This document shows positions 15,814 through 64,000 of a stretch of 64,000 nucleotides of DNA, in pieces. The DNA lies in the NCBI GenBank assembly GCA_019828595.1, contig JAHQRK010000038.1:303544-367543 (forward strand). The letters run 5' to 3'. The notes beneath the pieces are model-generated. The model saw only the letters and a list, made by a program, of their open reading frames with translations. It was not told where the DNA came from and ran no database searches. A program made the position numbers and the translations under genes. Origin of the DNA: Aphanomyces cochlioides. Taxonomy: Eukaryota > Oomycota > Saprolegniomycetes > Saprolegniales > Verrucalvaceae. Position 1 is the stretch's first letter. Every line of letters starts with the position of its first letter.

Positions 15814-15914
15814 TTTTGCCAAACAGATTTTGAATGTACTGGGATGAGTTAGACTTGGTTTTTGTATACTATAATTAAACAAGTATTAGCACCCCGAAAG
15901 CCACAAATTTGAAA

Positions 15915-34342: not shown

Positions 34343-35202
34343 TCACATTTTTGCTTGGCCAAGATATTGAGGTGTCGACTTGGCTAAGGCTTCGACGCGA
34401 TCAAAGAATTTCAAGTCCTCAAGGATGATCTTGTCCGTGGAGCAACCTTCATGCACGCTGAATCCATGGGCTTGCAGCTGAAAGCCAAGTGTGAGTGGGT
34501 ACTTGGTATTCGCTTCGGTGAATGTCATGAGGTTGTAGTAAGCTACAAGTGCATCCTTTTGAGCGATCTTTGACGCGTTGTGTGAAAAGTCATACACGTT
34601 GGCATGGACATACGTGTTGACTAGCACGCCCACACCGCGATGGCTCAACTTGGCGATGGCGGTCAAGATCTCCTTGGACGAATTGGCAGTGCGAATCATG
34701 GTCAGTTCCTTGTCAAGGGGTGTCAAACCAAGCTGGTTGATCGTCGTGGTGTCCATGCACGAGTGGTAAAACTCGCCAATCTTGGGTTTCTTGGCTGCAA
34801 TCAGCTCGTTGACAATGCGTTCGGCTTCAGCAGTCACGATACCGCTCATGTAGAGCACTTGACTCTTCGTGGGGGAATCACTACGTCGTTGAGCCACGTA
34901 CCACAGGCATACTTGACGAAATCCGAGCACAGATCGACCGTCCCGTCCATGAGTTTGACCATATCCGCTGGTAATTCAGAAATGAAGCCACCAGCAAGGA
35001 TGGAAACAGCTCCAGCAAACGACGCAAGTGTGGTCTTGTTCATGGCAGCGTCAAATGCAATATGCAGTGCATCGTACACTTGGTCATTGCTGCAATTTCT
35101 GTTCAAGCTGTAGAAAGTCATAGTACTCATTACAAACGCAACAGGCGACAAGTACATTGCACTGTTTCCCTCTTCGTCGTCCTTGCTCCGATTCTTTTGC
35201 AT
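34343..35202 (-). pseudogene. M13 (neprilysin-like) peptidase, N-terminal fragment with frameshift
   Basis: Two overlapping minus frames (34846-35202, ATG at 35202; and 34343-34930) carry one continuous M13 N-terminal domain. The first has DLCSDFVKYACGTWLNDVVIPP, the typical start of the extracellular domain after the membrane anchor. The second continues TKSQVLYMSGIVTAEAERIV and ends KSTPQYLGQAKM at a stop. The break is in a run of five C near 34875-34880, where one base is missing relative to the other frame. Only about the first 275-300 residues are present; the family is usually 650-750 aa, and no HExxH or ExxxD zinc motif is found downstream. It is therefore truncated and frameshifted, most likely a pseudogene. 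A sequencing error could explain the frameshift but not the missing catalytic half. Confidence 0.7.
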
Positions 35203-35820: not shown

Positions 35821-35937
35821 TAGAACTCAAAACCAAAAACGTTGTGTCTGAGAGATAACAAACTGATAGTCCTTATATATCAACAATTCTATACTATGCA
35901 TCAGATATCAGAATATACCTCCGACATTTCAATGAAA

Positions 35938-35959
35938 GTGTCATTTATTTATTTGACAC
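35938..35959. repeat. Inverted repeat in monomer (copy 1)
   Basis: GTGTCA, ten A/T bases, then TGACAC: a perfect six-base stem with a TTTATTTATT loop. It recurs at +1046 in each copy. It could be a protein-binding palindrome or chance. Confidence 0.4.
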
Positions 35960-36070
35960 ACATATCCATTGAAGACATGTCTATTTCTCAAAAATGGGGA
36001 ATATACATATGACAATTGGAAATTGCGAAACAAGGCATCTATGACTGAATAAGTGTATTATCACAAGCAC

Positions 36071-36465
36071 ATGTCATCTTCTGAGAAACACATCGAATAT
36101 GAAGAATGGACTCCATCTATTCACGCATGCATGAAACCACTGGTTAAGCATCGATATAGGCGAGTGGTCTACAATGCGTAAGCCAACAAGTAGACATCAC
36201 TATTCACATAATCGATTAAGATGTCTCGCGAAACAATCAATCGATGACCAATTTTCATGCAAGCATGCACCCATTGCGCATGGAGGATAGAAGTTTCTAT
36301 AACGTTACCTCCGTCTTGGCTCGCTACCACTCTATGGCTGAAGACATGCTTCAAATGGCCAGTCTTCGTCGCCGTCGCTACCGAGAACGCCGTCAAGAGC
36401 GCCTCGACGCCGATCGCTTGGCCTTGAATGGCATGTTCGGTCAAAGTCAGAGCCAAGGGTTCTGA
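36071..36465 (+). CDS. Predicted two-exon small basic protein encoded in each monomer (copy 1)
   Basis: Exon 1 (36071-36177) starts ATG and encodes MSSSEKHIEYEEWTPSIH onward to HRYRRVVYNA. A good donor GTAAGC at 36178 and the acceptor CATGCAAG at 36263 define an 86-nt intron. Exon 2 (36264-36465) continues in phase, giving about 102 aa ending MFGQSQSQGF. A second in-phase acceptor 27 nt downstream (GGATAG) would give 93 aa. Exon 2 is GC-richer than the rest of the monomer and encodes a helix MASLRRRRYRERRQERLDAD, suggesting nucleic-acid binding. An ATG at 36244 also opens a 73-codon intronless version. The same structure recurs at +1046 for copies 2-26. No family is recognised. Expression is unknown; one alternative is the minus-strand frame at 36169-36474. 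Confidence 0.45.
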
Positions 36466-36474
36466 TATATCCAT
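36169..36474 (-). other. Alternative 101-codon minus-strand frame in each monomer (copy 1)
   Basis: An ATG-to-stop frame overlapping the plus-strand gene almost completely, reading MDISEPLALTLTEHAIQGQA onward. It recurs in copies 1-26 with one changed residue in copies 5, 10 and 13 (Val to Ile) and one in copy 21 (Ile to Phe). Plus-strand coding looks better to me because of the splice signals and the Arg-rich helix, but the copies are too similar to test which strand is under selection. Confidence 0.25.
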
Positions 36475-36717
36475 TAGAACTCTAAATCAAAAGCAGCGAC
36501 AGATACGAAAACAATGGTATCGAGAAATGGCGCAACTATGCAGGAGTAATAACAGTTTAAGTGGAGAGCTCAAGTATATTTGACGCAGCTATTACCATGA
36601 GTAAAACGGCATGATTAGCTCAGAGCAGCACATGTACACTAGAAATCATCGCATTCTGGAGGTCGTTGTGCTCAATCAAGGTTCCAACGTAATATCCAGA
36701 TGTCGTGGACATCAATC

Positions 36718-36863
36718 AAACGTGTTCGAAACCCGAAAATAACAGGTCGAAACATGAATAGAACACGTTTAACATGTTTTTGACGTGTTTGAAACAATAA
36801 AACGTTTTTGTTTTCATGTTTTAAACAGTTAAACGTGTTTTTAAACCGTTTTGAACATGTCCG
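36718..36863. repeat. Cluster of short AACRTGTTT-like repeats in monomer (copy 1)
   Basis: Within about 145 bp there are roughly ten variants of AAC(A/G)(T/C)GTTT, for example AACGTGTT, AACACGTT, AACATGTT, GACGTGTT, AAACGTTT, AACGTGTT, AACCGTTT and AACATGT. Many are near-palindromic, often with GAAAC or TAAAC between them. The cluster recurs in copies 1-26; 101 bp of it are missing from copy 27. It could be a set of protein-binding sites or a nested minisatellite. Confidence 0.6.
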
Positions 36864-39800
36864 TAATAGAACTCAAAACCAAAAACGTTGTGTCTGAGAG
36901 ATAACAAACTGATAGTCCTTATATATCAACAATTCTATACTATGCATCAGATATCAGAATATACCTCCGACATTTCAATGAAAGTGTCATTTATTTATTT
37001 GACACACATATCCATTGAAGACATGTCTATTTCTCAAAAATGGGGAATATACATATGACAATTGGAAATTGCGAAACAAGGCATCTATGACTGAATAAGT
37101 GTATTATCACAAGCACATGTCATCTTCTGAGAAACACATCGAATATGAAGAATGGACTCCATCTATTCACGCATGCATGAAACCACTGGTTAAGCATCGA
37201 TATAGGCGAGTGGTCTACAATGCGTAAGCCAACAAGTAGACATCACTATTCACATAATCGATTAAGATGTCTCGCGAAACAATCAATCGATGACCAATTT
37301 TCATGCAAGCATGCACCCATTGCGCATGGAGGATAGAAGTTTCTATAACGTTACCTCCGTCTTGGCTCGCTACCACTCTATGGCTGAAGACATGCTTCAA
37401 ATGGCCAGTCTTCGTCGCCGTCGCTACCGAGAACGCCGTCAAGAGCGCCTCGACGCCGATCGCTTGGCCTTGAATGGCATGTTCGGTCAAAGTCAGAGCC
37501 AAGGGTTCTGATATATCCATTAGAACTCTAAATCAAAAGCAGCGACAGATACGAAAACAATGGTATCGAGAAATGGCGCAACTATGCAGGAGTAATAACA
37601 GTTTAAGTGGAGAGCTCAAGTATATTTGACGCAGCTATTACCATGAGTAAAACGGCATGATTAGCTCAGAGCAGCACATGTACACTAGAAATCATCGCAT
37701 TCTGGAGGTCGTTGTGCTCAATCAAGGTTCCAACGTAATATCCAGATGTCGTGGACATCAATCAAACGTGTTCGAAACCCGAAAATAACAGGTCGAAACA
37801 TGAATAGAACACGTTTAACATGTTTTTGACGTGTTTGAAACAATAAAACGTTTTTGTTTTCATGTTTTAAACAGTTAAACGTGTTTTTAAACCGTTTTGA
37901 ACATGTCCGTAATAGAACTCAAAACCAAAAACGTTGTGTCTGAGAGATAACAAACTGATAGTCCTTATATATCAACAATTCTATACTATGCATCAGATAT
38001 CAGAATATACCTCCGACATTTCAATGAAAGTGTCATTTATTTATTTGACACACATATCCATTGAAGACATGTCTATTTCTCAAAAATGGGGAATATACAT
38101 ATGACAATTGGAAATTGCGAAACAAGGCATCTATGACTGAATAAGTGTATTATCACAAGCACATGTCATCTTCTGAGAAACACATCGAATATGAAGAATG
38201 GACTCCATCTATTCACGCATGCATGAAACCACTGGTTAAGCATCGATATAGGCGAGTGGTCTACAATGCGTAAGCCAACAAGTAGACATCACTATTCACA
38301 TAATCGATTAAGATGTCTCGCGAAACAATCAATCGATGACCAATTTTCATGCAAGCATGCACCCATTGCGCATGGAGGATAGAAGTTTCTATAACGTTAC
38401 CTCCGTCTTGGCTCGCTACCACTCTATGGCTGAAGACATGCTTCAAATGGCCAGTCTTCGTCGCCGTCGCTACCGAGAACGCCGTCAAGAGCGCCTCGAC
38501 GCCGATCGCTTGGCCTTGAATGGCATGTTCGGTCAAAGTCAGAGCCAAGGGTTCTGATATATCCATTAGAACTCTAAATCAAAAGCAGCGACAGATACGA
38601 AAACAATGGTATCGAGAAATGGCGCAACTATGCAGGAGTAATAACAGTTTAAGTGGAGAGCTCAAGTATATTTGACGCAGCTATTACCATGAGTAAAACG
38701 GCATGATTAGCTCAGAGCAGCACATGTACACTAGAAATCATCGCATTCTGGAGGTCGTTGTGCTCAATCAAGGTTCCAACGTAATATCCAGATGTCGTGG
38801 ACATCAATCAAACGTGTTCGAAACCCGAAAATAACAGGTCGAAACATGAATAGAACACGTTTAACATGTTTTTGACGTGTTTGAAACAATAAAACGTTTT
38901 TGTTTTCATGTTTTAAACAGTTAAACGTGTTTTTAAACCGTTTTGAACATGTCCGTAATAGAACTCAAAACCAAAAACGTTGTGTCTGAGAGATAACAAA
39001 CTGATAGTCCTTATATATCAACAATTCTATACTATGCATCAGATATCAGAATATACCTCCGACATTTCAATGAAAGTGTCATTTATTTATTTGACACACA
39101 TATCCATTGAAGACATGTCTATTTCTCAAAAATGGGGAATATACATATGACAATTGGAAATTGCGAAACAAGGCATCTATGACTGAATAAGTGTATTATC
39201 ACAAGCACATGTCATCTTCTGAGAAACACATCGAATATGAAGAATGGACTCCATCTATTCACGCATGCATGAAACCACTGGTTAAGCATCGATATAGGCG
39301 AGTGGTCTACAATGCGTAAGCCAACAAGTAGACATCACTATTCACATAATCGATTAAGATGTCTCGCGAAACAATCAATCGATGACCAATTTTCATGCAA
39401 GCATGCACCCATTGCGCATGGAGGATAGAAGTTTCTATAACGTTACCTCCGTCTTGGCTCGCTACCACTCTATGGCTGAAGACATGCTTCAAATGGCCAG
39501 TCTTCGTCGCCGTCGCTACCGAGAACGCCGTCAAGAGCGCCTCGACGCCGATCGCTTGGCCTTGAATGGCATGTTCGGTCAAAGTCAGAGCCAAGGGTTC
39601 TGATATATCCATTAGAACTCTAAATCAAAAGCAGCGACAGATACGAAAACAATGGTATCGAGAAATGGCGCAACTATGCAGGAGTAATAACAGTTTAAGT
39701 GGAGAGCTCAAGTATATTTGACGCAGCTATTACCATGAGTAAAACGGCATGATTAGCTCAGAGCAGCACATGTACACTAGAAATCATCGCATTCTGGAGG

Positions 39801-42800
39801 TCGTTGTGCTCAATCAAGGTTCCAACGTAATATCCAGATGTCGTGGACATCAATCAAACGTGTTCGAAACCCGAAAATAACAGGTCGAAACATGAATAGA
39901 ACACGTTTAACATGTTTTTGACGTGTTTGAAACAATAAAACGTTTTTGTTTTCATGTTTTAAACAGTTAAACGTGTTTTTAAACCGTTTTGAACATGTCC
40001 GTAATAGAACTCAAAACCAAAAACGTTGTGTCTGAGAGATAACAAACTGATAGTCCTTATATATCAACAATTCTATACTATGCATCAGATATCAGAATAT
40101 ACCTCCGACATTTCAATGAAAGTGTCATTTATTTATTTGACACACATATCCATTGAAGACATGTCTATTTCTCAAAAATGGGGAATATACATATGACAAT
40201 TGGAAATTGCGAAACAAGGCATCTATGACTGAATAAGTGTATTATCACAAGCACATGTCATCTTCTGAGAAACACATCGAATATGAAGAATGGACTCCAT
40301 CTATTCACGCATGCATGAAACCACTGGTTAAGCATCGATATAGGCGAGTGGTCTACAATGCGTAAGCCAACAAGTAGATATCACTATTCACATAATCGAT
40401 TAAGATGTCTCGCGAAACAATCAATCGATGACCAATTTTCATGCAAGCATGCACCCATTGCGCATGGAGGATAGAAGTTTCTATAACGTTACCTCCGTCT
40501 TGGCTCGCTACCACTCTATGGCTGAAGACATGCTTCAAATGGCCAGTCTTCGTCGCCGTCGCTACCGAGAACGCCGTCAAGAGCGCCTCGACGCCGATCG
40601 CTTGGCCTTGAATGGCATGTTCGGTCAAAGTCAGAGCCAAGGGTTCTGATATATCCATTAGAACTCTAAATCAAAAGCAGCGACAGATACGAAAACAATG
40701 GTATCGAGAAATGGCGCAACTATGCAGGAGTAATAACAGTTTAAGTGGAGAGCTCAAGTATATTTGACGCAGCTATTACCATGAGTAAAACGGCATGATT
40801 AGCTCAGAGCAGCACATGTACACTAGAAATCATCGCATTCTGGAGGTCGTTGTGCTCAATCAAGGTTCCAACGTAATATCCAGATGTCGTGGACATCAAT
40901 CAAACGTGTTCGAAACCCGAAAATAACAGGTCGAAACATGAATAGAACACGTTTAACATGTTTTTGACGTGTTTGAAACAATAAAACGTTTTTGTTTTCA
41001 TGTTTTAAACAGTTAAACGTGTTTTTAAACCGTTTTGAACATGTCCGTAATAGAACTCAAAACCAAAAACGTTGTGTCTGAGAGATAACAAACTGATAGT
41101 CCTTATATATCAACAATTCTATACTATGCATCAGATATCAGAATATACCTCCGACATTTCAATGAAAGTGTCATTTATTTATTTGACACACATATCCATT
41201 GAAGACATGTCTATTTCTCAAAAATGGGGAATATACATATGACAATTGGAAATTGCGAAACAAGGCATCTATGACTGAATAAGTGTATTATCACAAGCAC
41301 ATGTCATCTTCTGAGAAACACATCGAATATGAAGAATGGACTCCATCTATTCACGCATGCATGAAACCACTGGTTAAGCATCGATATAGGCGAGTGGTCT
41401 ACAATGCGTAAGCCAACAAGTAGACATCACTATTCACATAATCGATTAAGATGTCTCGCGAAACAATCAATCGATGACCAATTTTCATGCAAGCATGCAC
41501 CCATTGCGCATGGAGGATAGAAGTTTCTATAACGTTACCTCCGTCTTGGCTCGCTACCACTCTATGGCTGAAGACATGCTTCAAATGGCCAGTCTTCGTC
41601 GCCGTCGCTACCGAGAACGCCGTCAAGAGCGCCTCGACGCCGATCGCTTGGCCTTGAATGGCATGTTCGGTCAAAGTCAGAGCCAAGGGTTCTGATATAT
41701 CCATTAGAACTCTAAATCAAAAGCAGCGACAGATACGAAAACAATGGTATCGAGAAATGGCGCAACTATGCAGGAGTAATAACAGTTTAAGTGGAGAGCT
41801 CAAGTATATTTGACGCAGCTATTACCATGAGTAAAACGGCATGATTAGCTCAGAGCAGCACATGTACACTAGAAATCATCGCATTCTGGAGGTCGTTGTG
41901 CTCAATCAAGGTTCCAACGTAATATCCAGATGTCGTGGACATCAATCAAACGTGTTCGAAACCCGAAAATAACAGGTCGAAACATGAATAGAACACGTTT
42001 AACATGTTTTTGACGTGTTTGAAACAATAAAACGTTTTTGTTTTCATGTTTTAAACAGTTAAACGTGTTTTTAAACCGTTTTGAACATGTCCGTAATAGA
42101 ACTCAAAACCAAAAACGTTGTGTCTGAGAGATAACAAACTGATAGTCCTTATATATCAACAATTCTATACTATGCATCAGATATCAGAATATACCTCCGA
42201 CATTTCAATGAAAGTGTCATTTATTTATTTGACACACATATCCATTGAAGACATGTCTATTTCTCAAAAATGGGGAATATACATATGACAATTGGAAATT
42301 GCGAAACAAGGCATCTATGACTGAATAAGTGTATTATCACAAGCACATGTCATCTTCTGAGAAACACATCGAATATGAAGAATGGACTCCATCTATTCAC
42401 GCATGCATGAAACCACTGGTTAAGCATCGATATAGGCGAGTGGTCTACAATGCGTAAGCCAACAAGTAGACATCACTATTCACATAATCGATTAAGATGT
42501 CTCGCGAAACAATCAATCGATGACCAATTTTCATGCAAGCATGCACCCATTGCGCATGGAGGATAGAAGTTTCTATAACGTTACCTCCGTCTTGGCTCGC
42601 TACCACTCTATGGCTGAAGACATGCTTCAAATGGCCAGTCTTCGTCGCCGTCGCTACCGAGAACGCCGTCAAGAGCGCCTCGACGCCGATCGCTTGGCCT
42701 TGAATGGCATGTTCGGTCAAAGTCAGAGCCAAGGGTTCTGATATATCCATTAGAACTCTAAATCAAAAGCAGCGACAGATACGAAAACAATGGTATCGAG

Positions 42801-45800
42801 AAATGGCGCAACTATGCAGGAGTAATAACAGTTTAAGTGGAGAGCTCAAGTATATTTGACGCAGCTATTACCATGAGTAAAACGGCATGATTAGCTCAGA
42901 GCAGCACATGTACACTAGAAATCATCGCATTCTGGAGGTCGTTGTGCTCAATCAAGGTTCCAACGTAATATCCAGATGTCGTGGACATCAATCAAACGTG
43001 TTCGAAACCCGAAAATAACAGGTCGAAACATGAATAGAACACGTTTAACATGTTTTTGACGTGTTTGAAACAATAAAACGTTTTTGTTTTCATGTTTTAA
43101 ACAGTTAAACGTGTTTTTAAACCGTTTTGAACATGTCCGTAATAGAACTCAAAACCAAAAACGTTGTGTCTGAGAGATAACAAACTGATAGTCCTTATAT
43201 ATCAACAATTCTATACTATGCATCAGATATCAGAATATACCTCCGACATTTCAATGAAAGTGTCATTTATTTATTTGACACACATATCCATTGAAGACAT
43301 GTCTATTTCTCAAAAATGGGGAATATACATATGACAATTGGAAATTGCGAAACAAGGCATCTATGACTGAATAAGTGTATTATCACAAGCACATGTCATC
43401 TTCTGAGAAACACATCGAATATGAAGAATGGACTCCATCTATTCACGCATGCATGAAACCACTGGTTAAGCATCGATATAGGCGAGTGGTCTACAATGCG
43501 TAAGCCAACAAGTAGACATCACTATTCACATAATCGATTAAGATGTCTCGCGAAACAATCAATCGATGACCAATTTTCATGCAAGCATGCACCCATTGCG
43601 CATGGAGGATAGAAGTTTCTATAACGTTACCTCCGTCTTGGCTCGCTACCACTCTATGGCTGAAGACATGCTTCAAATGGCCAGTCTTCGTCGCCGTCGC
43701 TACCGAGAACGCCGTCAAGAGCGCCTCGACGCCGATCGCTTGGCCTTGAATGGCATGTTCGGTCAAAGTCAGAGCCAAGGGTTCTGATATATCCATTAGA
43801 ACTCTAAATCAAAAGCAGCGACAGATACGAAAACAATGGTATCGAGAAATGGCGCAACTATGCAGGAGTAATAACAGTTTAAGTGGAGAGCTCAAGTATA
43901 TTTGACGCAGCTATTACCATGAGTAAAACGGCATGATTAGCTCAGAGCAGCACATGTACACTAGAAATCATCGCATTCTGGAGGTCGTTGTGCTCAATCA
44001 AGGTTCCAACGTAATATCCAGATGTCGTGGACATCAATCAAACGTGTTCGAAACCCGAAAATAACAGGTCGAAACATGAATAGAACACGTTTAACATGTT
44101 TTTGACGTGTTTGAAACAATAAAACGTTTTTGTTTTCATGTTTTAAACAGTTAAACGTGTTTTTAAACCGTTTTGAACATGTCCGTAATAGAACTCAAAA
44201 CCAAAAACGTTGTGTCTGAGAGATAACAAACTGATAGTCCTTATATATCAACAATTCTATACTATGCATCAGATATCAGAATATACCTCCGACATTTCAA
44301 TGAAAGTGTCATTTATTTATTTGACACACATATCCATTGAAGACATGTCTATTTCTCAAAAATGGGGAATATACATATGACAATTGGAAATTGCGAAACA
44401 AGGCATCTATGACTGAATAAGTGTATTATCACAAGCACATGTCATCTTCTGAGAAACACATCGAATATGAAGAATGGACTCCATCTATTCACGCATGCAT
44501 GAAACCACTGGTTAAGCATCGATATAGGCGAGTGGTCTACAATGCGTAAGCCAACAAGTAGACATCACTATTCACATAATCGATTAAGATGTCTCGCGAA
44601 ACAATCAATCGATGACCAATTTTCATGCAAGCATGCACCCATTGCGCATGGAGGATAGAAGTTTCTATAACGTTACCTCCGTCTTGGCTCGCTACCACTC
44701 TATGGCTGAAGACATGCTTCAAATGGCCAGTCTTCGTCGCCGTCGCTACCGAGAACGCCGTCAAGAGCGCCTCGACGCCGATCGCTTGGCCTTGAATGGC
44801 ATGTTCGGTCAAAGTCAGAGCCAAGGGTTCTGATATATCCATTAGAACTCTAAATCAAAAGCAGCGACAGATACGAAAACAATGGTATCGAGAAATGGCG
44901 CAACTATGCAGGAGTAATAACAGTTTAAGTGGAGAGCTCAAGTATATTTGACGCAGCTATTACCATGAGTAAAACGGCATGATTAGCTCAGAGCAGCACA
45001 TGTACACTAGAAATCATCGCATTCTGGAGGTCGTTGTGCTCAATCAAGGTTCCAACGTAATATCCAGATGTCGTGGACATCAATCAAACGTGTTCGAAAC
45101 CCGAAAATAACAGGTCGAAACATGAATAGAACACGTTTAACATGTTTTTGACGTGTTTGAAACAATAAAACGTTTTTGTTTTCATGTTTTAAACAGTTAA
45201 ACGTGTTTTTAAACCGTTTTGAACATGTCCGTAATAGAACTCAAAACCAAAAACGTTGTGTCTGAGAGATAACAAACTGATAGTCCTTATATATCAACAA
45301 TTCTATACTATGCATCAGATATCAGAATATACCTCCGACATTTCAATGAAAGTGTCATTTATTTATTTGACACACATATCCATTGAAGACATGTCTATTT
45401 CTCAAAAATGGGGAATATACATATGACAATTGGAAATTGCGAAACAAGGCATCTATGACTGAATAAGTGTATTATCACAAGCACATGTCATCTTCTGAGA
45501 AACACATCGAATATGAAGAATGGACTCCATCTATTCACGCATGCATGAAACCACTGGTTAAGCATCGATATAGGCGAGTGGTCTACAATGCGTAAGCCAA
45601 CAAGTAGATATCACTATTCACATAATCGATTAAGATGTCTCGCGAAACAATCAATCGATGACCAATTTTCATGCAAGCATGCACCCATTGCGCATGGAGG
45701 ATAGAAGTTTCTATAACGTTACCTCCGTCTTGGCTCGCTACCACTCTATGGCTGAAGACATGCTTCAAATGGCCAGTCTTCGTCGCCGTCGCTACCGAGA

Positions 45801-48800
45801 ACGCCGTCAAGAGCGCCTCGACGCCGATCGCTTGGCCTTGAATGGCATGTTCGGTCAAAGTCAGAGCCAAGGGTTCTGATATATCCATTAGAACTCTAAA
45901 TCAAAAGCAGCGACAGATACGAAAACAATGGTATCGAGAAATGGCGCAACTATGCAGGAGTAATAACAGTTTAAGTGGAGAGCTCAAGTATATTTGACGC
46001 AGCTATTACCATGAGTAAAACGGCATGATTAGCTCAGAGCAGCACATGTACACTAGAAATCATCGCATTCTGGAGGTCGTTGTGCTCAATCAAGGTTCCA
46101 ACGTAATATCCAGATGTCGTGGACATCAATCAAACGTGTTCGAAACCCGAAAATAACAGGTCGAAACATGAATAGAACACGTTTAACATGTTTTTGACGT
46201 GTTTGAAACAATAAAACGTTTTTGTTTTCATGTTTTAAACAGTTAAACGTGTTTTTAAACCGTTTTGAACATGTCCGTAATAGAACTCAAAACCAAAAAC
46301 GTTGTGTCTGAGAGATAACAAACTGATAGTCCTTATATATCAACAATTCTATACTATGCATCAGATATCAGAATATACCTCCGACATTTCAATGAAAGTG
46401 TCATTTATTTATTTGACACACATATCCATTGAAGACATGTCTATTTCTCAAAAATGGGGAATATACATATGACAATTGGAAATTGCGAAACAAGGCATCT
46501 ATGACTGAATAAGTGTATTATCACAAGCACATGTCATCTTCTGAGAAACACATCGAATATGAAGAATGGACTCCATCTATTCACGCATGCATGAAACCAC
46601 TGGTTAAGCATCGATATAGGCGAGTGGTCTACAATGCGTAAGCCAACAAGTAGACATCACTATTCACATAATCGATTAAGATGTCTCGCGAAACAATCAA
46701 TCGATGACCAATTTTCATGCAAGCATGCACCCATTGCGCATGGAGGATAGAAGTTTCTATAACGTTACCTCCGTCTTGGCTCGCTACCACTCTATGGCTG
46801 AAGACATGCTTCAAATGGCCAGTCTTCGTCGCCGTCGCTACCGAGAACGCCGTCAAGAGCGCCTCGACGCCGATCGCTTGGCCTTGAATGGCATGTTCGG
46901 TCAAAGTCAGAGCCAAGGGTTCTGATATATCCATTAGAACTCTAAATCAAAAGCAGCGACAGATACGAAAACAATGGTATCGAGAAATGGCGCAACTATG
47001 CAGGAGTAATAACAGTTTAAGTGGAGAGCTCAAGTATATTTGACGCAGCTATTACCATGAGTAAAACGGCATGATTAGCTCAGAGCAGCACATGTACACT
47101 AGAAATCATCGCATTCTGGAGGTCGTTGTGCTCAATCAAGGTTCCAACGTAATATCCAGATGTCGTGGACATCAATCAAACGTGTTCGAAACCCGAAAAT
47201 AACAGGTCGAAACATGAATAGAACACGTTTAACATGTTTTTGACGTGTTTGAAACAATAAAACGTTTTTGTTTTCATGTTTTAAACAGTTAAACGTGTTT
47301 TTAAACCGTTTTGAACATGTCCGTAATAGAACTCAAAACCAAAAACGTTGTGTCTGAGAGATAACAAACTGATAGTCCTTATATATCAACAATTCTATAC
47401 TATGCATCAGATATCAGAATATACCTCCGACATTTCAATGAAAGTGTCATTTATTTATTTGACACACATATCCATTGAAGACATGTCTATTTCTCAAAAA
47501 TGGGGAATATACATATGACAATTGGAAATTGCGAAACAAGGCATCTATGACTGAATAAGTGTATTATCACAAGCACATGTCATCTTCTGAGAAACACATC
47601 GAATATGAAGAATGGACTCCATCTATTCACGCATGCATGAAACCACTGGTTAAGCATCGATATAGGCGAGTGGTCTACAATGCGTAAGCCAACAAGTAGA
47701 CATCACTATTCACATAATCGATTAAGATGTCTCGCGAAACAATCAATCGATGACCAATTTTCATGCAAGCATGCACCCATTGCGCATGGAGGATAGAAGT
47801 TTCTATAACGTTACCTCCGTCTTGGCTCGCTACCACTCTATGGCTGAAGACATGCTTCAAATGGCCAGTCTTCGTCGCCGTCGCTACCGAGAACGCCGTC
47901 AAGAGCGCCTCGACGCCGATCGCTTGGCCTTGAATGGCATGTTCGGTCAAAGTCAGAGCCAAGGGTTCTGATATATCCATTAGAACTCTAAATCAAAAGC
48001 AGCGACAGATACGAAAACAATGGTATCGAGAAATGGCGCAACTATGCAGGAGTAATAACAGTTTAAGTGGAGAGCTCAAGTATATTTGACGCAGCTATTA
48101 CCATGAGTAAAACGGCATGATTAGCTCAGAGCAGCACATGTACACTAGAAATCATCGCATTCTGGAGGTCGTTGTGCTCAATCAAGGTTCCAACGTAATA
48201 TCCAGATGTCGTGGACATCAATCAAACGTGTTCGAAACCCGAAAATAACAGGTCGAAACATGAATAGAACACGTTTAACATGTTTTTGACGTGTTTGAAA
48301 CAATAAAACGTTTTTGTTTTCATGTTTTAAACAGTTAAACGTGTTTTTAAACCGTTTTGAACATGTCCGTAATAGAACTCAAAACCAAAAACGTTGTGTC
48401 TGAGAGATAACAAACTGATAGTCCTTATATATCAACAATTCTATACTATGCATCAGATATCAGAATATACCTCCGACATTTCAATGAAAGTGTCATTTAT
48501 TTATTTGACACACATATCCATTGAAGACATGTCTATTTCTCAAAAATGGGGAATATACATATGACAATTGGAAATTGCGAAACAAGGCATCTATGACTGA
48601 ATAAGTGTATTATCACAAGCACATGTCATCTTCTGAGAAACACATCGAATATGAAGAATGGACTCCATCTATTCACGCATGCATGAAACCACTGGTTAAG
48701 CATCGATATAGGCGAGTGGTCTACAATGCGTAAGCCAACAAGTAGATATCACTATTCACATAATCGATTAAGATGTCTCGCGAAACAATCAATCGATGAC

Positions 48801-51800: not shown

Positions 51801-54800
51801 CTCCATCTATTCACGCATGCATGAAACCACTGGTTAAGCATCGATATAGGCGAGTGGTCTACAATGCGTAAGCCAACAAGTAGACATCACTATTCACATA
51901 ATCGATTAAGATGTCTCGCGAAACAATCAATCGATGACCAATTTTCATGCAAGCATGCACCCATTGCGCATGGAGGATAGAAGTTTCTATAACGTTACCT
52001 CCGTCTTGGCTCGCTACCACTCTATGGCTGAAGACATGCTTCAAATGGCCAGTCTTCGTCGCCGTCGCTACCGAGAACGCCGTCAAGAGCGCCTCGACGC
52101 CGATCGCTTGGCCTTGAATGGCATGTTCGGTCAAAGTCAGAGCCAAGGGTTCTGATATATCCATTAGAACTCTAAATCAAAAGCAGCGACAGATACGAAA
52201 ACAATGGTATCGAGAAATGGCGCAACTATGCAGGAGTAATAACAGTTTAAGTGGAGAGCTCAAGTATATTTGACGCAGCTATTACCATGAGTAAAACGGC
52301 ATGATTAGCTCAGAGCAGCACATGTACACTAGAAATCATCGCATTCTGGAGGTCGTTGTGCTCAATCAAGGTTCCAACGTAATATCCAGATGTCGTGGAC
52401 ATCAATCAAACGTGTTCGAAACCCGAAAATAACAGGTCGAAACATGAATAGAACACGTTTAACATGTTTTTGACGTGTTTGAAACAATAAAACGTTTTTG
52501 TTTTCATGTTTTAAACAGTTAAACGTGTTTTTAAACCGTTTTGAACATGTCCGTAATAGAACTCAAAACCAAAAACGTTGTGTCTGAGAGATAACAAACT
52601 GATAGTCCTTATATATCAACAATTCTATACTATGCATCAGATATCAGAATATACCTCCGACATTTCAATGAAAGTGTCATTTATTTATTTGACACACATA
52701 TCCATTGAAGACATGTCTATTTCTCAAAAATGGGGAATATACATATGACAATTGGAAATTGCGAAACAAGGCATCTATGACTGAATAAGTGTATTATCAC
52801 AAGCACATGTCATCTTCTGAGAAACACATCGAATATGAAGAATGGACTCCATCTATTCACGCATGCATGAAACCACTGGTTAAGCATCGATATAGGCGAG
52901 TGGTCTACAATGCGTAAGCCAACAAGTAGACATCACTATTCACATAATCGATTAAGATGTCTCGCGAAACAATCAATCGATGACCAATTTTCATGCAAGC
53001 ATGCACCCATTGCGCATGGAGGATAGAAGTTTCTATAACGTTACCTCCGTCTTGGCTCGCTACCACTCTATGGCTGAAGACATGCTTCAAATGGCCAGTC
53101 TTCGTCGCCGTCGCTACCGAGAACGCCGTCAAGAGCGCCTCGACGCCGATCGCTTGGCCTTGAATGGCATGTTCGGTCAAAGTCAGAGCCAAGGGTTCTG
53201 ATATATCCATTAGAACTCTAAATCAAAAGCAGCGACAGATACGAAAACAATGGTATCGAGAAATGGCGCAACTATGCAGGAGTAATAACAGTTTAAGTGG
53301 AGAGCTCAAGTATATTTGACGCAGCTATTACCATGAGTAAAACGGCATGATTAGCTCAGAGCAGCACATGTACACTAGAAATCATCGCATTCTGGAGGTC
53401 GTTGTGCTCAATCAAGGTTCCAACGTAATATCCAGATGTCGTGGACATCAATCAAACGTGTTCGAAACCCGAAAATAACAGGTCGAAACATGAATAGAAC
53501 ACGTTTAACATGTTTTTGACGTGTTTGAAACAATAAAACGTTTTTGTTTTCATGTTTTAAACAGTTAAACGTGTTTTTAAACCGTTTTGAACATGTCCGT
53601 AATAGAACTCAAAACCAAAAACGTTGTGTCTGAGAGATAACAAACTGATAGTCCTTATATATCAACAATTCTATACTATGCATCAGATATCAGAATATAC
53701 CTCCGACATTTCAATGAAAGTGTCATTTATTTATTTGACACACATATCCATTGAAGACATGTCTATTTCTCAAAAATGGGGAATATACATATGACAATTG
53801 GAAATTGCGAAACAAGGCATCTATGACTGAATAAGTGTATTATCACAAGCACATGTCATCTTCTGAGAAACACATCGAATATGAAGAATGGACTCCATCT
53901 ATTCACGCATGCATGAAACCACTGGTTAAGCATCGATATAGGCGAGTGGTCTACAATGCGTAAGCCAACAAGTAGACATCACTATTCACATAATCGATTA
54001 AGATGTCTCGCGAAACAATCAATCGATGACCAATTTTCATGCAAGCATGCACCCATTGCGCATGGAGGATAGAAGTTTCTATAACGTTACCTCCGTCTTG
54101 GCTCGCTACCACTCTATGGCTGAAGACATGCTTCAAATGGCCAGTCTTCGTCGCCGTCGCTACCGAGAACGCCGTCAAGAGCGCCTCGACGCCGATCGCT
54201 TGGCCTTGAATGGCATGTTCGGTCAAAGTCAGAGCCAAGGGTTCTGATATATCCATTAGAACTCTAAATCAAAAGCAGCGACAGATACGAAAACAATGGT
54301 ATCGAGAAATGGCGCAACTATGCAGGAGTAATAACAGTTTAAGTGGAGAGCTCAAGTATATTTGACGCAGCTATTACCATGAGTAAAACGGCATGATTAG
54401 CTCAGAGCAGCACATGTACACTAGAAATCATCGCATTCTGGAGGTCGTTGTGCTCAATCAAGGTTCCAACGTAATATCCAGATGTCGTGGACATCAATCA
54501 AACGTGTTCGAAACCCGAAAATAACAGGTCGAAACATGAATAGAACACGTTTAACATGTTTTTGACGTGTTTGAAACAATAAAACGTTTTTGTTTTCATG
54601 TTTTAAACAGTTAAACGTGTTTTTAAACCGTTTTGAACATGTCCGTAATAGAACTCAAAACCAAAAACGTTGTGTCTGAGAGATAACAAACTGATAGTCC
54701 TTATATATCAACAATTCTATACTATGCATCAGATATCAGAATATACCTCCGACATTTCAATGAAAGTGTCATTTATTTATTTGACACACATATCCATTGA

Positions 54801-57800
54801 AGACATGTCTATTTCTCAAAAATGGGGAATATACATATGACAATTGGAAATTGCGAAACAAGGCATCTATGACTGAATAAGTGTATTATCACAAGCACAT
54901 GTCATCTTCTGAGAAACACATCGAATATGAAGAATGGACTCCATCTATTCACGCATGCATGAAACCACTGGTTAAGCATCGATATAGGCGAGTGGTCTAC
55001 AATGCGTAAGCCAACAAGTAGACATCACTATTCACATAATCGATTAAGATGTCTCGCGAAACAATCAATCGATGACCAATTTTCATGCAAGCATGCACCC
55101 ATTGCGCATGGAGGATAGAAGTTTCTATAACGTTACCTCCGTCTTGGCTCGCTACCACTCTATGGCTGAAGACATGCTTCAAATGGCCAGTCTTCGTCGC
55201 CGTCGCTACCGAGAACGCCGTCAAGAGCGCCTCGACGCCGATCGCTTGGCCTTGAATGGCATGTTCGGTCAAAGTCAGAGCCAAGGGTTCTGATATATCC
55301 ATTAGAACTCTAAATCAAAAGCAGCGACAGATACGAAAACAATGGTATCGAGAAATGGCGCAACTATGCAGGAGTAATAACAGTTTAAGTGGAGAGCTCA
55401 AGTATATTTGACGCAGCTATTACCATGAGTAAAACGGCATGATTAGCTCAGAGCAGCACATGTACACTAGAAATCATCGCATTCTGGAGGTCGTTGTGCT
55501 CAATCAAGGTTCCAACGTAATATCCAGATGTCGTGGACATCAATCAAACGTGTTCGAAACCCGAAAATAACAGGTCGAAACATGAATAGAACACGTTTAA
55601 CATGTTTTTGACGTGTTTGAAACAATAAAACGTTTTTGTTTTCATGTTTTAAACAGTTAAACGTGTTTTTAAACCGTTTTGAACATGTCCGTAATAGAAC
55701 TCAAAACCAAAAACGTTGTGTCTGAGAGATAACAAACTGATAGTCCTTATATATCAACAATTCTATACTATGCATCAGATATCAGAATATACCTCCGACA
55801 TTTCAATGAAAGTGTCATTTATTTATTTGACACACATATCCATTGAAGACATGTCTATTTCTCAAAAATGGGGAATATACATATGACAATTGGAAATTGC
55901 GAAACAAGGCATCTATGACTGAATAAGTGTATTATCACAAGCACATGTCATCTTCTGAGAAACACATCGAATATGAAGAATGGACTCCATCTATTCACGC
56001 ATGCATGAAACCACTGGTTAAGCATCGATATAGGCGAGTGGTCTACAATGCGTAAGCCAACAAGTAGACATCACTATTCACATAATCGATTAAGATGTCT
56101 CGCGAAACAATCAATCGATGACCAATTTTCATGCAAGCATGCACCCATTGCGCATGGAGGATAGAAGTTTCTATAACGTTACCTCCGTCTTGGCTCGCTA
56201 CCACTCTATGGCTGAAGACATGCTTCAAATGGCCAGTCTTCGTCGCCGTCGCTACCGAGAACGCCGTCAAGAGCGCCTCGACGCCGATCGCTTGGCCTTG
56301 AATGGCATGTTCGGTCAAAGTCAGAGCCAAGGGTTCTGATATATCCATTAGAACTCTAAATCAAAAGCAGCGACAGATACGAAAACAATGGTATCGAGAA
56401 ATGGCGCAACTATGCAGGAGTAATAACAGTTTAAGTGGAGAGCTCAAGTATATTTGACGCAGCTATTACCATGAGTAAAACGGCATGATTAGCTCAGAGC
56501 AGCACATGTACACTAGAAATCATCGCATTCTGGAGGTCGTTGTGCTCAATCAAGGTTCCAACGTAATATCCAGATGTCGTGGACATCAATCAAACGTGTT
56601 CGAAACCCGAAAATAACAGGTCGAAACATGAATAGAACACGTTTAACATGTTTTTGACGTGTTTGAAACAATAAAACGTTTTTGTTTTCATGTTTTAAAC
56701 AGTTAAACGTGTTTTTAAACCGTTTTGAACATGTCCGTAATAGAACTCAAAACCAAAAACGTTGTGTCTGAGAGATAACAAACTGATAGTCCTTATATAT
56801 CAACAATTCTATACTATGCATCAGATATCAGAATATACCTCCGACATTTCAATGAAAGTGTCATTTATTTATTTGACACACATATCCATTGAAGACATGT
56901 CTATTTCTCAAAAATGGGGAATATACATATGACAATTGGAAATTGCGAAACAAGGCATCTATGACTGAATAAGTGTATTATCACAAGCACATGTCATCTT
57001 CTGAGAAACACATCGAATATGAAGAATGGACTCCATCTATTCACGCATGCATGAAACCACTGGTTAAGCATCGATATAGGCGAGTGGTCTACAATGCGTA
57101 AGCCAACAAGTAGACATCACTATTCACATAATCGATTAAGATGTCTCGCGAAACAAACAATCGATGACCAATTTTCATGCAAGCATGCACCCATTGCGCA
57201 TGGAGGATAGAAGTTTCTATAACGTTACCTCCGTCTTGGCTCGCTACCACTCTATGGCTGAAGACATGCTTCAAATGGCCAGTCTTCGTCGCCGTCGCTA
57301 CCGAGAACGCCGTCAAGAGCGCCTCGACGCCGATCGCTTGGCCTTGAATGGCATGTTCGGTCAAAGTCAGAGCCAAGGGTTCTGATATATCCATTAGAAC
57401 TCTAAATCAAAAGCAGCGACAGATACGAAAACAATGGTATCGAGAAATGGCGCAACTATGCAGGAGTAATAACAGTTTAAGTGGAGAGCTCAAGTATATT
57501 TGACGCAGCTATTACCATGAGTAAAACGGCATGATTAGCTCAGAGCAGCACATGTACACTAGAAATCATCGCATTCTGGAGGTCGTTGTGCTCAATCAAG
57601 GTTCCAACGTAATATCCAGATGTCGTGGACATCAATCAAACGTGTTCGAAACCCGAAAATAACAGGTCGAAACATGAATAGAACACGTTTAACATGTTTT
57701 TGACGTGTTTGAAACAATAAAACGTTTTTGTTTTCATGTTTTAAACAGTTAAACGTGTTTTTAAACCGTTTTGAACATGTCCGTAATAGAACTCAAAACC

Positions 57801-60800
57801 AAAAACGTTGTGTCTGAGAGATAACAAACTGATAGTCCTTATATATCAACAATTCTATACTATGCATCAGATATCAGAATATACCTCCGACATTTCAATG
57901 AAAGTGTCATTTATTTATTTGACACACATATCCATTGAAGACATGTCTATTTCTCAAAAATGGGGAATATACATATGACAATTGGAAATTGCGAAACAAG
58001 GCATCTATGACTGAATAAGTGTATTATCACAAGCACATGTCATCTTCTGAGAAACACATCGAATATGAAGAATGGACTCCATCTATTCACGCATGCATGA
58101 AACCACTGGTTAAGCATCGATATAGGCGAGTGGTCTACAATGCGTAAGCCAACAAGTAGACATCACTATTCACATAATCGATTAAGATGTCTCGCGAAAC
58201 AATCAATCGATGACCAATTTTCATGCAAGCATGCACCCATTGCGCATGGAGGATAGAAGTTTCTATAACGTTACCTCCGTCTTGGCTCGCTACCACTCTA
58301 TGGCTGAAGACATGCTTCAAATGGCCAGTCTTCGTCGCCGTCGCTACCGAGAACGCCGTCAAGAGCGCCTCGACGCCGATCGCTTGGCCTTGAATGGCAT
58401 GTTCGGTCAAAGTCAGAGCCAAGGGTTCTGATATATCCATTAGAACTCTAAATCAAAAGCAGCGACAGATACGAAAACAATGGTATCGAGAAATGGCGCA
58501 ACTATGCAGGAGTAATAACAGTTTAAGTGGAGAGCTCAAGTATATTTGACGCAGCTATTACCATGAGTAAAACGGCATGATTAGCTCAGAGCAGCACATG
58601 TACACTAGAAATCATCGCATTCTGGAGGTCGTTGTGCTCAATCAAGGTTCCAACGTAATATCCAGATGTCGTGGACATCAATCAAACGTGTTCGAAACCC
58701 GAAAATAACAGGTCGAAACATGAATAGAACACGTTTAACATGTTTTTGACGTGTTTGAAACAATAAAACGTTTTTGTTTTCATGTTTTAAACAGTTAAAC
58801 GTGTTTTTAAACCGTTTTGAACATGTCCGTAATAGAACTCAAAACCAAAAACGTTGTGTCTGAGAGATAACAAACTGATAGTCCTTATATATCAACAATT
58901 CTATACTATGCATCAGATATCAGAATATACCTCCGACATTTCAATGAAAGTGTCATTTATTTATTTGACACACATATCCATTGAAGACATGTCTATTTCT
59001 CAAAAATGGGGAATATACATATGACAATTGGAAATTGCGAAACAAGGCATCTATGACTGAATAAGTGTATTATCACAAGCACATGTCATCTTCTGAGAAA
59101 CACATCGAATATGAAGAATGGACTCCATCTATTCACGCATGCATGAAACCACTGGTTAAGCATCGATATAGGCGAGTGGTCTACAATGCGTAAGCCAACA
59201 AGTAGACATCACTATTCACATAATCGATTAAGATGTCTCGCGAAACAATCAATCGATGACCAATTTTCATGCAAGCATGCACCCATTGCGCATGGAGGAT
59301 AGAAGTTTCTATAACGTTACCTCCGTCTTGGCTCGCTACCACTCTATGGCTGAAGACATGCTTCAAATGGCCAGTCTTCGTCGCCGTCGCTACCGAGAAC
59401 GCCGTCAAGAGCGCCTCGACGCCGATCGCTTGGCCTTGAATGGCATGTTCGGTCAAAGTCAGAGCCAAGGGTTCTGATATATCCATTAGAACTCTAAATC
59501 AAAAGCAGCGACAGATACGAAAACAATGGTATCGAGAAATGGCGCAACTATGCAGGAGTAATAACAGTTTAAGTGGAGAGCTCAAGTATATTTGACGCAG
59601 CTATTACCATGAGTAAAACGGCATGATTAGCTCAGAGCAGCACATGTACACTAGAAATCATCGCATTCTGGAGGTCGTTGTGCTCAATCAAGGTTCCAAC
59701 GTAATATCCAGATGTCGTGGACATCAATCAAACGTGTTCGAAACCCGAAAATAACAGGTCGAAACATGAATAGAACACGTTTAACATGTTTTTGACGTGT
59801 TTGAAACAATAAAACGTTTTTGTTTTCATGTTTTAAACAGTTAAACGTGTTTTTAAACCGTTTTGAACATGTCCGTAATAGAACTCAAAACCAAAAACGT
59901 TGTGTCTGAGAGATAACAAACTGATAGTCCTTATATATCAACAATTCTATACTATGCATCAGATATCAGAATATACCTCCGACATTTCAATGAAAGTGTC
60001 ATTTATTTATTTGACACACATATCCATTGAAGACATGTCTATTTCTCAAAAATGGGGAATATACATATGACAATTGGAAATTGCGAAACAAGGCATCTAT
60101 GACTGAATAAGTGTATTATCACAAGCACATGTCATCTTCTGAGAAACACATCGAATATGAAGAATGGACTCCATCTATTCACGCATGCATGAAACCACTG
60201 GTTAAGCATCGATATAGGCGAGTGGTCTACAATGCGTAAGCCAACAAGTAGACATCACTATTCACATAATCGATTAAGATGTCTCGCGAAACAATCAATC
60301 GATGACCAATTTTCATGCAAGCATGCACCCATTGCGCATGGAGGATAGAAGTTTCTATAACGTTACCTCCGTCTTGGCTCGCTACCACTCTATGGCTGAA
60401 GACATGCTTCAAATGGCCAGTCTTCGTCGCCGTCGCTACCGAGAACGCCGTCAAGAGCGCCTCGACGCCGATCGCTTGGCCTTGAATGGCATGTTCGGTC
60501 AAAGTCAGAGCCAAGGGTTCTGATATATCCATTAGAACTCTAAATCAAAAGCAGCGACAGATACGAAAACAATGGTATCGAGAAATGGCGCAACTATGCA
60601 GGAGTAATAACAGTTTAAGTGGAGAGCTCAAGTATATTTGACGCAGCTATTACCATGAGTAAAACGGCATGATTAGCTCAGAGCAGCACATGTACACTAG
60701 AAATCATCGCATTCTGGAGGTCGTTGTGCTCAATCAAGGTTCCAACGTAATATCCAGATGTCGTGGACATCAATCAAACGTGTTCGAAACCCGAAAATAA

Positions 60801-63016
60801 CAGGTCGAAACATGAATAGAACACGTTTAACATGTTTTTGACGTGTTTGAAACAATAAAACGTTTTTGTTTTCATGTTTTAAACAGTTAAACGTGTTTTT
60901 AAACCGTTTTGAACATGTCCGTAATAGAACTCAAAACCAAAAACGTTGTGTCTGAGAGATAACAAACTGATAGTCCTTATATATCAACAATTCTATACTA
61001 TGCATCAGATATCAGAATATACCTCCGACATTTCAATGAAAGTGTCATTTATTTATTTGACACACATATCCATTGAAGACATGTCTATTTCTCAAAAATG
61101 GGGAATATACATATGACAATTGGAAATTGCGAAACAAGGCATCTATGACTGAATAAGTGTATTATCACAAGCACATGTCATCTTCTGAGAAACACATCGA
61201 ATATGAAGAATGGACTCCATCTATTCACGCATGCATGAAACCACTGGTTAAGCATCGATATAGGCGAGTGGTCTACAATGCGTAAGCCAACAAGTAGACA
61301 TCACTATTCACATAATCGATTAAGATGTCTCGCGAAACAATCAATCGATGACCAATTTTCATGCAAGCATGCACCCATTGCGCATGGAGGATAGAAGTTT
61401 CTATAACGTTACCTCCGTCTTGGCTCGCTACCACTCTATGGCTGAAGACATGCTTCAAATGGCCAGTCTTCGTCGCCGTCGCTACCGAGAACGCCGTCAA
61501 GAGCGCCTCGACGCCGATCGCTTGGCCTTGAATGGCATGTTCGGTCAAAGTCAGAGCCAAGGGTTCTGATATATCCATTAGAACTCTAAATCAAAAGCAG
61601 CGACAGATACGAAAACAATGGTATCGAGAAATGGCGCAACTATGCAGGAGTAATAACAGTTTAAGTGGAGAGCTCAAGTATATTTGACGCAGCTATTACC
61701 ATGAGTAAAACGGCATGATTAGCTCAGAGCAGCACATGTACACTAGAAATCATCGCATTCTGGAGGTCGTTGTGCTCAATCAAGGTTCCAACGTAATATC
61801 CAGATGTCGTGGACATCAATCAAACGTGTTCGAAACCCGAAAATAACAGGTCGAAACATGAATAGAACACGTTTAACATGTTTTTGACGTGTTTGAAACA
61901 ATAAAACGTTTTTGTTTTCATGTTTTAAACAGTTAAACGTGTTTTTAAACCGTTTTGAACATGTCCGTAATAGAACTCAAAACCAAAAACGTTGTGTCTG
62001 AGAGATAACAAACTGATAGTCCTTATATATCAACAATTCTATACTATGCATCAGATATCAGAATATACCTCCGACATTTCAATGAAAGTGTCATTTATTT
62101 ATTTGACACACATATCCATTGAAGACATGTCTATTTCTCAAAAATGGGGAATATACATATGACAATTGGAAATTGCGAAACAAGGCATCTATGACTGAAT
62201 AAGTGTATTATCACAAGCACATGTCATCTTCTGAGAAACACATCGAATATGAAGAATGGACTCCATCTATTCACGCATGCATGAAACCACTGGTTAAGCA
62301 TCGATATAGGCGAGTGGTCTACAATGCGTAAGCCAACAAGTAGACATCACTATTCACATAATCGATTAAGATGTCTCGCGAAACAATCAATCGATGACCA
62401 ATTTTCATGCAAGCATGCACCCATTGCGCATGGAGGATAGAAGTTTCTATAACGTTACCTCCGTCTTGGCTCGCTACCACTCTATGGCTGAAGACATGCT
62501 TCAAATGGCCAGTCTTCGTCGCCGTCGCTACCGAGAACGCCGTCAAGAGCGCCTCGACGCCGATCGCTTGGCCTTGAATGGCATGTTCGGTCAAAGTCAG
62601 AGCCAAGGGTTCTGATATATCCATTAGAACTCTAAATCAAAAGCAGCGACAGATACGAAAACAATGGTATCGAGAAATGGCGCAACTATGCAGGAGTAAT
62701 AACAGTTTAAGTGGAGAGCTCAAGTATATTTGACGCAGCTATTACCATGAGTAAAACGGCATGATTAGCTCAGAGCAGCACATGTACACTAGAAATCATC
62801 GCATTCTGGAGGTCGTTGTGCTCAATCAAGGTTCCAACGTAATATCCAGATGTCGTGGACATCAATCAAACGTGTTCGAAACCCGAAAATAACAGGTCGA
62901 AACATGAATAGAACACGTTTAACATGTTTTTGACGTGTTTGAAACAATAAAACGTTTTTGTTTTCATGTTTTAAACAGTTAAACGTGTTTTTAAACCGTT
63001 TTGAACATGTCCGTAA

Positions 63017-63959
63017 TAGAACTCAAAACCAAAAACGTTGTGTCTGAGAGATAACAAACTGATAGTCCTTATATATCAACAATTCTATACTATGCATCAG
63101 ATATCAGAATATACCTCCGACATTTCAATGAAAGTGTCATTTATTTATTTGACACACATATCCATTGAAGACATGTCTATTTCTCAAAATGGGGAATATA
63201 CATATGACAATTGGAAATTGCGAAACAAGGCATCTATGACTGAATAAGTGTATTATCACAAGCACATGTCATCTTCTGAGAAACACATCGAATATGAAGA
63301 ATGGACTCCATCTATTCACGCATGCATGAAACCACTGGTTAAGCATCGATATAGGCGAGTGGTCTACAATGCGTAAGCCAACAAGTAGACATCACTATTC
63401 ACATAATCGATTAAGATGTCTCGCGAAACAATCAATCGATGACCAATTTTCATGCAAGCATGCACCCATTGCGCATGGAGGATAGAATTTCTATAACGTT
63501 ACCTCCGTCTTGGCTCGCTACCACTCTATGGCTGAAGACATGCTTCAAATGGCCAGTCTTCGTCGCCGTCGCTACCGAGAACGCCGTCAAGAGCGCCTCG
63601 ACGCCGATCGCTTGGCCTTGAATGGCATGTTCGGTCAAAGTCAGAGCCAAGGGTTCTGATATATTCATTAGAACTCTAAATCAAAAGCAGCGACAGATAC
63701 GAAAACAATGGTATCGAGAAATGGCGCAACTATGCAGGAGTAATAACAGTTTCAGTGGAGAGCTCAAGTATATTTGACGCAGCTATTACCATGAGTAAAA
63801 CGGCATGATTAGCTCAGAGCAGCACATGTACACTAGAAATCATCGCATTCTGGAGGTCGTTGTGCTCAATCAAGGTTCCAACGTAATATCCAGATGTCGT
63901 GGACATCAATCAAACGTGTTCAAAACCCGAAAATAACAGCGTTTTGAACATGTCCGTAA
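63017..63959 (+). repeat. Diverged, shortened copy 27 of the monomer
   Basis: 943 bp. Relative to copies 1-26 it lacks one A in the CTCAAAAATGG run (near 63187) and one G near 63488, which shifts both predicted reading frames. It also has substitutions near 63665, 63753 and 63922, and a 101-bp deletion joining AAAATAACAG directly to CGTTTTGAACATG near 63940. The divergence marks it as an edge or older copy. Confidence 0.9.
63266..63657 (+). pseudogene. Frameshifted copy 27 of the monomer-encoded gene
   Basis: Exon 1 is intact, but the one-base loss near 63488 moves exon 2 out of frame, so after MEDR the reading changes completely and the Arg-rich helix is lost. The opposite-strand frame is shifted by the same deletion and ends early, at 63450. 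Confidence 0.5.
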
Positions 63960-64000
63960 TAGAACTCAAAACCAAAAACGTTGTGTCTGAGAGATAACAA
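63960..64000 (+). repeat. Start of copy 28, cut by the window end
   Basis: The last 41 bases match the monomer start, so the array continues beyond the window. Confidence 0.9.

Follow-up and report, generated by a model that had tools for sequence, protein, structure and literature searches.

A 1,046-bp tandem array in Aphanomyces cochlioides is very probably a macrosatellite derived from a rearranged PIF/Harbinger-like transposon

What is the repeated unit of the long, nearly perfect tandem array that fills the right part of a 64,000-bp stretch of Aphanomyces cochlioides DNA (GenBank:GCA_019828595.1, contig JAHQRK010000038.1, positions 303,544 to 367,543; hereafter the window, its contig being C32), and how did it become multiplied? 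A first-pass annotation of the window had described at least 28 kb of 1,046-bp repeats starting sharply at position 35821 beside decayed genes, with 26 copies of equal length and few differences, and had taken them for a product of recent amplification or ongoing homogenisation, possibly a centromeric or subtelomeric satellite or an amplified gene cassette. Our analysis indicates that the array is very probably a transposon-derived macrosatellite, in which a crippled, rearranged copy was amplified in place and homogenised by recombination.

The description of the repeat held up. When all periods from 50 to 4,999 bp were tested over positions 36,001-64,000, the best was 1,046 bp with a self-match of 97.7%, and the best period other than its multiples reached 31%. 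Self-comparison at a shift of 1,046 placed the left boundary at 35821, with no fading of the match. Positions 35821-63016 comprise 26 full units, every one exactly 1,046 bp long (unit positions are numbered from 35821 as position 1); 22 of them, unit 1 included, are identical, and the remaining four carry one substitution apiece, namely 375C>T in units 5, 10 and 13 and 417T>A in unit 21. The 27th unit (63017-63959) carries three substitutions and has lost single bases at two places and about 100 bp in one block; of the 28th only the start is present (63960-64000), as contig C32 (367,543 bp) stops there, at the end of the window. The 28 kb in the window is thus a minimum.

The unit was resolved into three modules, A, B and C, and a short joint, by comparison with a related element on contig C14. 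The array and the parts of its first unit are:

35821..64000, plus strand: tandem array of 1,046-bp units (self-comparison at shift 1,046; BLASTN of unit 1)
35821..36244, plus strand: module A (unit positions 1-424), left transposon end, with terminal repeat AGAACTCAAAACCAAAAAC from 35822, at the exact left edge of the array
36244..36465, plus strand: module B (unit positions 424-645), 73 codons and a stop, C-terminal end of a DDE_Tnp_4 transposase
36469..36852, plus strand: module C (unit positions 649-1032), right transposon end, inverted relative to module B when compared with C14 (BLASTN)
36853..36866, plus strand: joint of 14 bp, GAACATGTCCGTAA, linking module C to the terminal repeat of the following unit (sequence)

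This comparison showed the unit to be related to a PIF/Harbinger-like DNA transposon but rearranged: it is made up of the left end, the last 73 codons of the transposase and the flipped right end. Module A is 98% identical to a lone copy elsewhere on the same contig (C32:285375-285795), which begins at the same base. Over monomer positions 1-423 it also resembles the C14 element, whose left terminal repeat is followed by a matching sequence of 64.6% identity. The frame of module B has 89% amino acid identity to the C14 transposase, its nearest relative outside the array in the same genome (protein search, 150 of 155 candidates scored), and 96% to P0121, a DDE_Tnp_4 protein of Aphanomyces euteiches; the array frame contains two residues, NV, that are lacking in P0121, in the C14 copy and in the other relatives aligned over that place. 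Module C matches C14 at 68% on the opposite strand (BLASTN), and its C14 counterpart comes after the transposase stop and ends in the terminal repeat. Because the right end is flipped, both terminal repeats of a unit point in the same direction, that of module C (AGAACTCTAAATCAAAAGC) starting at 36476 (unit position 656). The match to the C14 element stops at monomer position 1032, just before the joint.

Taken alone, the 73 residues of module B gave no Pfam match at E (expectation value) up to 1, and the 73-codon frame as query gave no candidate in the protein database, where length limits probably exclude full transposases; its identity as transposase was established by searching with the longer C14 frame. 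Between module B and C14, 24 of 71 codons differ synonymously and 8 by an amino acid change, the nonsynonymous rate (dN) being 0.058, the synonymous rate (dS) 1.45 and dN/dS about 0.04. In the two shifted frames, 2 and 3 synonymous codons were counted against 30 and 30 changed ones. This is strong evidence that module B has a coding ancestry; what was constrained at the protein level was the ancestral transposase and not the array. No RNA gene was found for the unit, as no Rfam family reached its gathering score in window positions 1-40000.

Two smaller features of module C were also noticed. A short degenerate 21-bp repeat lies at 36726-36765 and at the equivalent place in each unit, and three GTTT(0-3)AAAC motifs occur in module C, with none in the unit up to position 648; these motifs are perhaps sites for protein binding close to the end of the transposon.

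The C14 element and a second relative, on contig C5, give an outline of the parent. On C14, terminal repeats at C14:1213923 (left) and C14:1233159 (right) delimit a stretch of 19,237 bp that is flanked by AAT at either end; this 19.2-kb stretch, of which the last 5.2 kb and the first 0.5 kb were read, is likely one element. The C5 element is only 636 bp long, has the same two ends (97% and 93% identical to those of C14) and is flanked by ATT on both sides. In both elements the terminal inverted repeats are 19 bp long with 18 of 19 positions identical, and perfect 3-bp target duplications, AAT/AAT on C14 and ATT/ATT on C5, were thus present in two of two complete relatives. A TA target duplication had been considered and was dropped in favour of 3 bp once the left and right ends of each element, C5 and C14, had been set side by side on the same strand. 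The target site duplication of PIF/Harbinger elements is 3-bp TWA in the literature; those found here have 3 bp but read AAT and ATT. The C-terminal piece of the C14 transposase scored 26.3 bits with PF13359 (DDE_Tnp_4; Pfam cut-off, 24.8), and P0121 scored 47.7 bits. Relatives of the transposase are common in the genome, with 79 matches to the N-terminal piece, some of which are parts of one gene. PIF/Harbinger elements have a second gene, for a Myb/SANT-like protein. Near the right end of the C14 element, upstream of the broken transposase, there is a 472-aa open frame, for which no Pfam family was found at E up to 0.01.

Outside the array, the terminal-repeat patterns were found only in the C5 and C14 pairs and in the lone C32 copy, the matches past the 100 listed (3 of 103 and 6 of 106) being assigned from the counts to C81 units, C5 and C14. 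The lone module A copy is enclosed in a palindrome (C32:283430-290131) with arms 99.9-100% identical; one arm is interrupted by an insert of roughly 1.6 kb, whose 281-aa open frame looks transposase-like by eye.

The search of the rest of the genome for the monomer, which the first-pass annotation had proposed, revealed 103 units (150 of 155 candidates scored in the protein search), confined to three of the 94 contigs: 43 on C9, 27 on C32 and 33 on C81. Together the array amounts to about 107 kb of the 76.2-Mb assembly. The aconitase encoded in this assembly has 93% identity to a database cluster named after Aphanomyces astaci and 89% to Achlya, as befits an oomycete near Aphanomyces. This count agrees with the 104 matches of a 35-base unit tag at three mismatches or fewer (73 forward and 31 reverse; 100 of the 104 listed). 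The C9 array occupies bases 1 to 45014, with 12 plus-strand units followed, across a head-to-head joint at about 12412-12420, by 31 minus-strand units up to single-copy DNA. The first 300 and last 200 bases of C81 (34,062 bp) are array and tag positions run through the remainder, so that the unit appears to fill this contig, of which 500 of 34,062 bases, at the two ends, were read. Unit variants were compared on C32 and C9.

The array consists of head-to-tail repeats with a transposon-homologous unit, one of the features of a transposon-derived satellite. Recent amplification or homogenisation, as previously suggested, is supported by the identity of 22 of 26 units and by variants common to non-adjacent units: besides 375C>T in units 5, 10 and 13 of C32, 799C>A occurs in minus-strand units 8, 30 and 31 of C9, and 430delA in six C9 units. 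In the course of events that we propose, an internal deletion would have joined A to B and the right end would have flipped; this crippled copy, sitting between M13 peptidase genes, would have undergone a first duplication; unequal exchange together with conversion among the units (alternatively, copying from circles) would then have raised the number to at least 103 and maintained near-identity, and one head-to-head inversion inside the array would have reversed its right part. Normal excision of units is not expected, because the A and C terminal repeats have the same direction throughout the uniform stretch.

The variants also bear on whether the array is an assembly artefact, with one or two real units multiplied and the C9 inversion created by fold-back reads. 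The arrays of C32 and C9 do end their contigs, the units at those ends are damaged, and C81 is a short contig of array. However, units occur on three contigs and have their own variants: in the C32 and C9 units, to which the comparison was confined, 375C>T was seen solely on C32, and 799C>A and 430delA solely on C9. Fold-back reads would moreover give mirrored variants across the C9 junction, and the recurrent 799C>A of minus-strand unit 8 is absent from its mirror, plus-strand unit 5, so the inversion is unlikely to be a fold-back read. Among the explanations weighed here, an artefact is the least probable.

A second alternative takes up the coding capacity of the unit. In an adaptive amplification, the 73-codon frame would be expressed as a small basic protein, e.g. 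a repressor of a related transposase, with selection on its dose. The full frame is intact in 96 of the 103 units (six are free of stops but have lost their first residues through 430delA, and one is broken), and the ancestor was under strong protein-level constraint, as the dN/dS given above indicates. Yet homogenisation alone accounts for the intact frames, the constraint is older than the array and explained by a working ancestral transposase, and the frame holds only the last 73 residues; we consider such selection highly improbable. The idea of an amplified gene cassette was half right, since each unit does contain the 3' end of a transposase gene, but only that part of it. The array is most likely without host function, as selfish or passive DNA, and possibly silenced.

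The edges and flanks of the array provide further evidence on its origin. Two features of the window flank are relevant here:

34343..35046, minus strand: M13 peptidase gene fragment, 0.8 kb outside the array (PF05649, E 2.3e-18; DNA match to 35046)
4364..4912, plus strand: open frame of a family also found 12-13 kb from the C9 array (52% over 98 aa, E 5e-33; prevalence elsewhere not gauged)

The sharp start that had been noted coincides exactly with the terminal repeat of module A, and the nearby M13 fragment fits the description of decayed genes. On C9 the edge falls at unit position 677, which is 21 bp into the module C terminal repeat (start, 656). If C32 and C9 are one locus, the array has the left end of the element at its start and the truncated right end, in opposite orientation, at its finish, like a single transposon insertion. 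The closest relatives of the C32 M13 fragment are three M13 genes in the C9 flank (C9:47248-53935), with 54-69% amino acid identity by piece (18 matches listed); the next relative by E-value, C32:194709-195026, has 34%, and short pieces of other genes reach 48%. At 75-82% DNA identity, the M13 copies of the C32 and C9 flanks look like paralogues, not alleles. These relationships make it probable that C32 and C9 belong to a single M13 peptidase cluster and lie on either side of the array that splits it. Such a single locus requires an inversion inside the array, and one is present on C9. It was also noticed that the C9 flank (C9:46107-55091) contains three M13 copies, of which two stand in tandem and one is inverted; the copy in the middle is broken into two frames.

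Several observations weigh against the origin proposed here or restrict it. The three bases flanking the array on the left are GAT, as against AAT at the joint inside units, and the founder was therefore not simply the first unit with its flank. The ancestral empty site, reconstructed by joining the two 12-bp flanks inside the unit, had no match in the genome at three mismatches or fewer. The N-terminal piece of the same broken C14 gene scored 17.0 bits, under the 24.8 cut-off. C32, C81 and C9 are separate contigs with no assembled path from C32 through C81 to C9, and 103 units is a minimum. Finally, the mode of amplification is a proposal, since replication slippage would leave much the same traces as unequal exchange or circles. 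One idea is that A and C of the unit come from one insertion at AAT; it is based only on a 3-bp match, which has a chance of 1 in 64 and was noted post hoc.

The first-pass annotation had also suggested a centromeric or subtelomeric satellite, and a genome-wide satellite of either sort was not supported: full units are restricted to the three contigs mentioned, the array has peptidase genes to its left and right, and no unit was contained in 20 further contig starts (17 of 4 kb and 3 of 10 kb), of which seven carry telomere repeats. More specific forms of both possibilities were considered. The array could be the kinetochore site of this one chromosome, its homogenisation being centromere turnover: it is a long, near-identical tandem array that breaks the assembly, its G+C content is lower than that of the flank (39.9% vs 49.4%), and transposon-rich centromeres have been reported in an oomycete (PMC7082073). 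However, whereas a centromeric satellite would be present on most chromosomes or bound by CENP-A, full units are on 3 of 94 contigs and thus not on most; these three contigs probably represent one locus, and genes are present in the flanks; a centromeric or pericentromeric satellite seems to us very improbable.

The subtelomeric form would place arrays at two chromosome ends, the right of C32 and the left of C9, read outward in the same direction. The array does lie at a contig end in both cases, with the same outward orientation until the C9 inversion, and both are cut by the contig ends, the sequence past them being unassembled. The telomere repeat of this genome was recognised as the 8-bp CCCCCAAA/TTTGGGGG at the starts of C1, C3, C4, C5, C8, C12 and C17 and at the end of C2. 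No doubled CCCCCAAA or its complement was found in C9:1-60000 or in the window, the seven telomeric contig starts had no unit within 4 kb, and the finding that the M13 fragment of C32 has its nearest relatives in the C9 flank points to one locus; a pair of subtelomeric arrays is judged very improbable. TTTAGGG, reported as the telomere repeat of Phytophthora parasitica (PMC7290008), had no match of three in a row genome-wide. In a literature search with TTTGGGGG and telomere terms, no oomycete paper with that motif was among the matches listed.

It might also be asked whether the flip itself caused the array. In alternative transposition, the transposase of a related element would have cut directly oriented ends on sister chromatids, giving successive direct and inverted duplications. 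This would explain why the array grew and why it starts exactly at a transposon end, as well as the complementary AAT/ATT flanks within units and the C9 inversion. In maize, directly oriented ends on sister chromatids were reported to give rise to inverted duplications and deletions (PMC3744419), and re-replication has been reported (PMC4270019). The data do not require this mechanism, and we regard it as unlikely.

Against this background, amplification in place followed by recombination can be compared with known systems. Transposon-derived satellites as such are well known (PMC9659126), and a double-insertion paper by McGurk and Barbash is among the references of that review. By analogy of form, the nearest known match is Bari1, a Tc1-mariner element of Drosophila melanogaster, of which about 80 head-to-tail copies lie at one locus in the h39 heterochromatin, like the units described here (PMC8834629). 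According to that review, each copy lacks the first two bases, and aberrant transposition with circle-type copying was proposed as the origin (PMC8834629). Bari1 differs in superfamily and lineage and is near-complete, whereas the unit found here is a deletion/inversion derivative in an array flanked by genes. The authors of the review stated that they knew no comparable tandem organisation described among transposons (PMC8834629); the present array is a case comparable to Bari1 in a distant lineage. In Drosophila virilis, the Tetris/TIR-220 satellite also arose from DNA transposon ends, but there repeats of about 220 bp within the terminal repeats were amplified, and here the whole rearranged element (PMC4079207).

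In Aphanomyces euteiches, a relative of A. cochlioides, 10 of the 41 AeSat satellite families were reported to be transposon-like, DNA/Harbinger included (PMC8780586). That survey covered 100-500-bp monomers only, a range that excludes a unit of 1,046 bp, and it reported no coding sequence (PMC8780586). Among the tandem repeats PpSat1 to PpSat4 of another oomycete, P. parasitica, PpSat4 bears a MuDR transposon signature, the PpSat2 monomer is short (142 bp), and PpSat1 and PpSat2 lack a Repbase match (PMC7290008). Judged from titles, abstract openings and passages, the papers retrieved on tandem repeats and satellite DNA of Aphanomyces contained no description of the array, which is a new and unusually clear case of a transposon-derived satellite. 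How a transposon turns into a satellite has mostly had to be pieced together from old arrays whose features are blurred. In this array much can still be read, namely all three modules, the two terminal repeats, the joints and one edge that falls on a transposon end, and its genome also contains complete relatives with their target duplications. The order of events (deletion, flip, duplication and homogenisation) thereby becomes testable by comparison of strains. Satellite surveys limited to 100-500-bp monomers miss arrays with units of such length.

Two further open frames were seen in the window, at a distance from the array. The minus strand of 18281-30913 is a single open frame of 4,210 codons. 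The plus strand of 15879-17042 contains a 387-aa transposase frame with a DDE_3 domain (PF13358, E 1.3e-19), which we take to represent a Tc1/mariner-type element.

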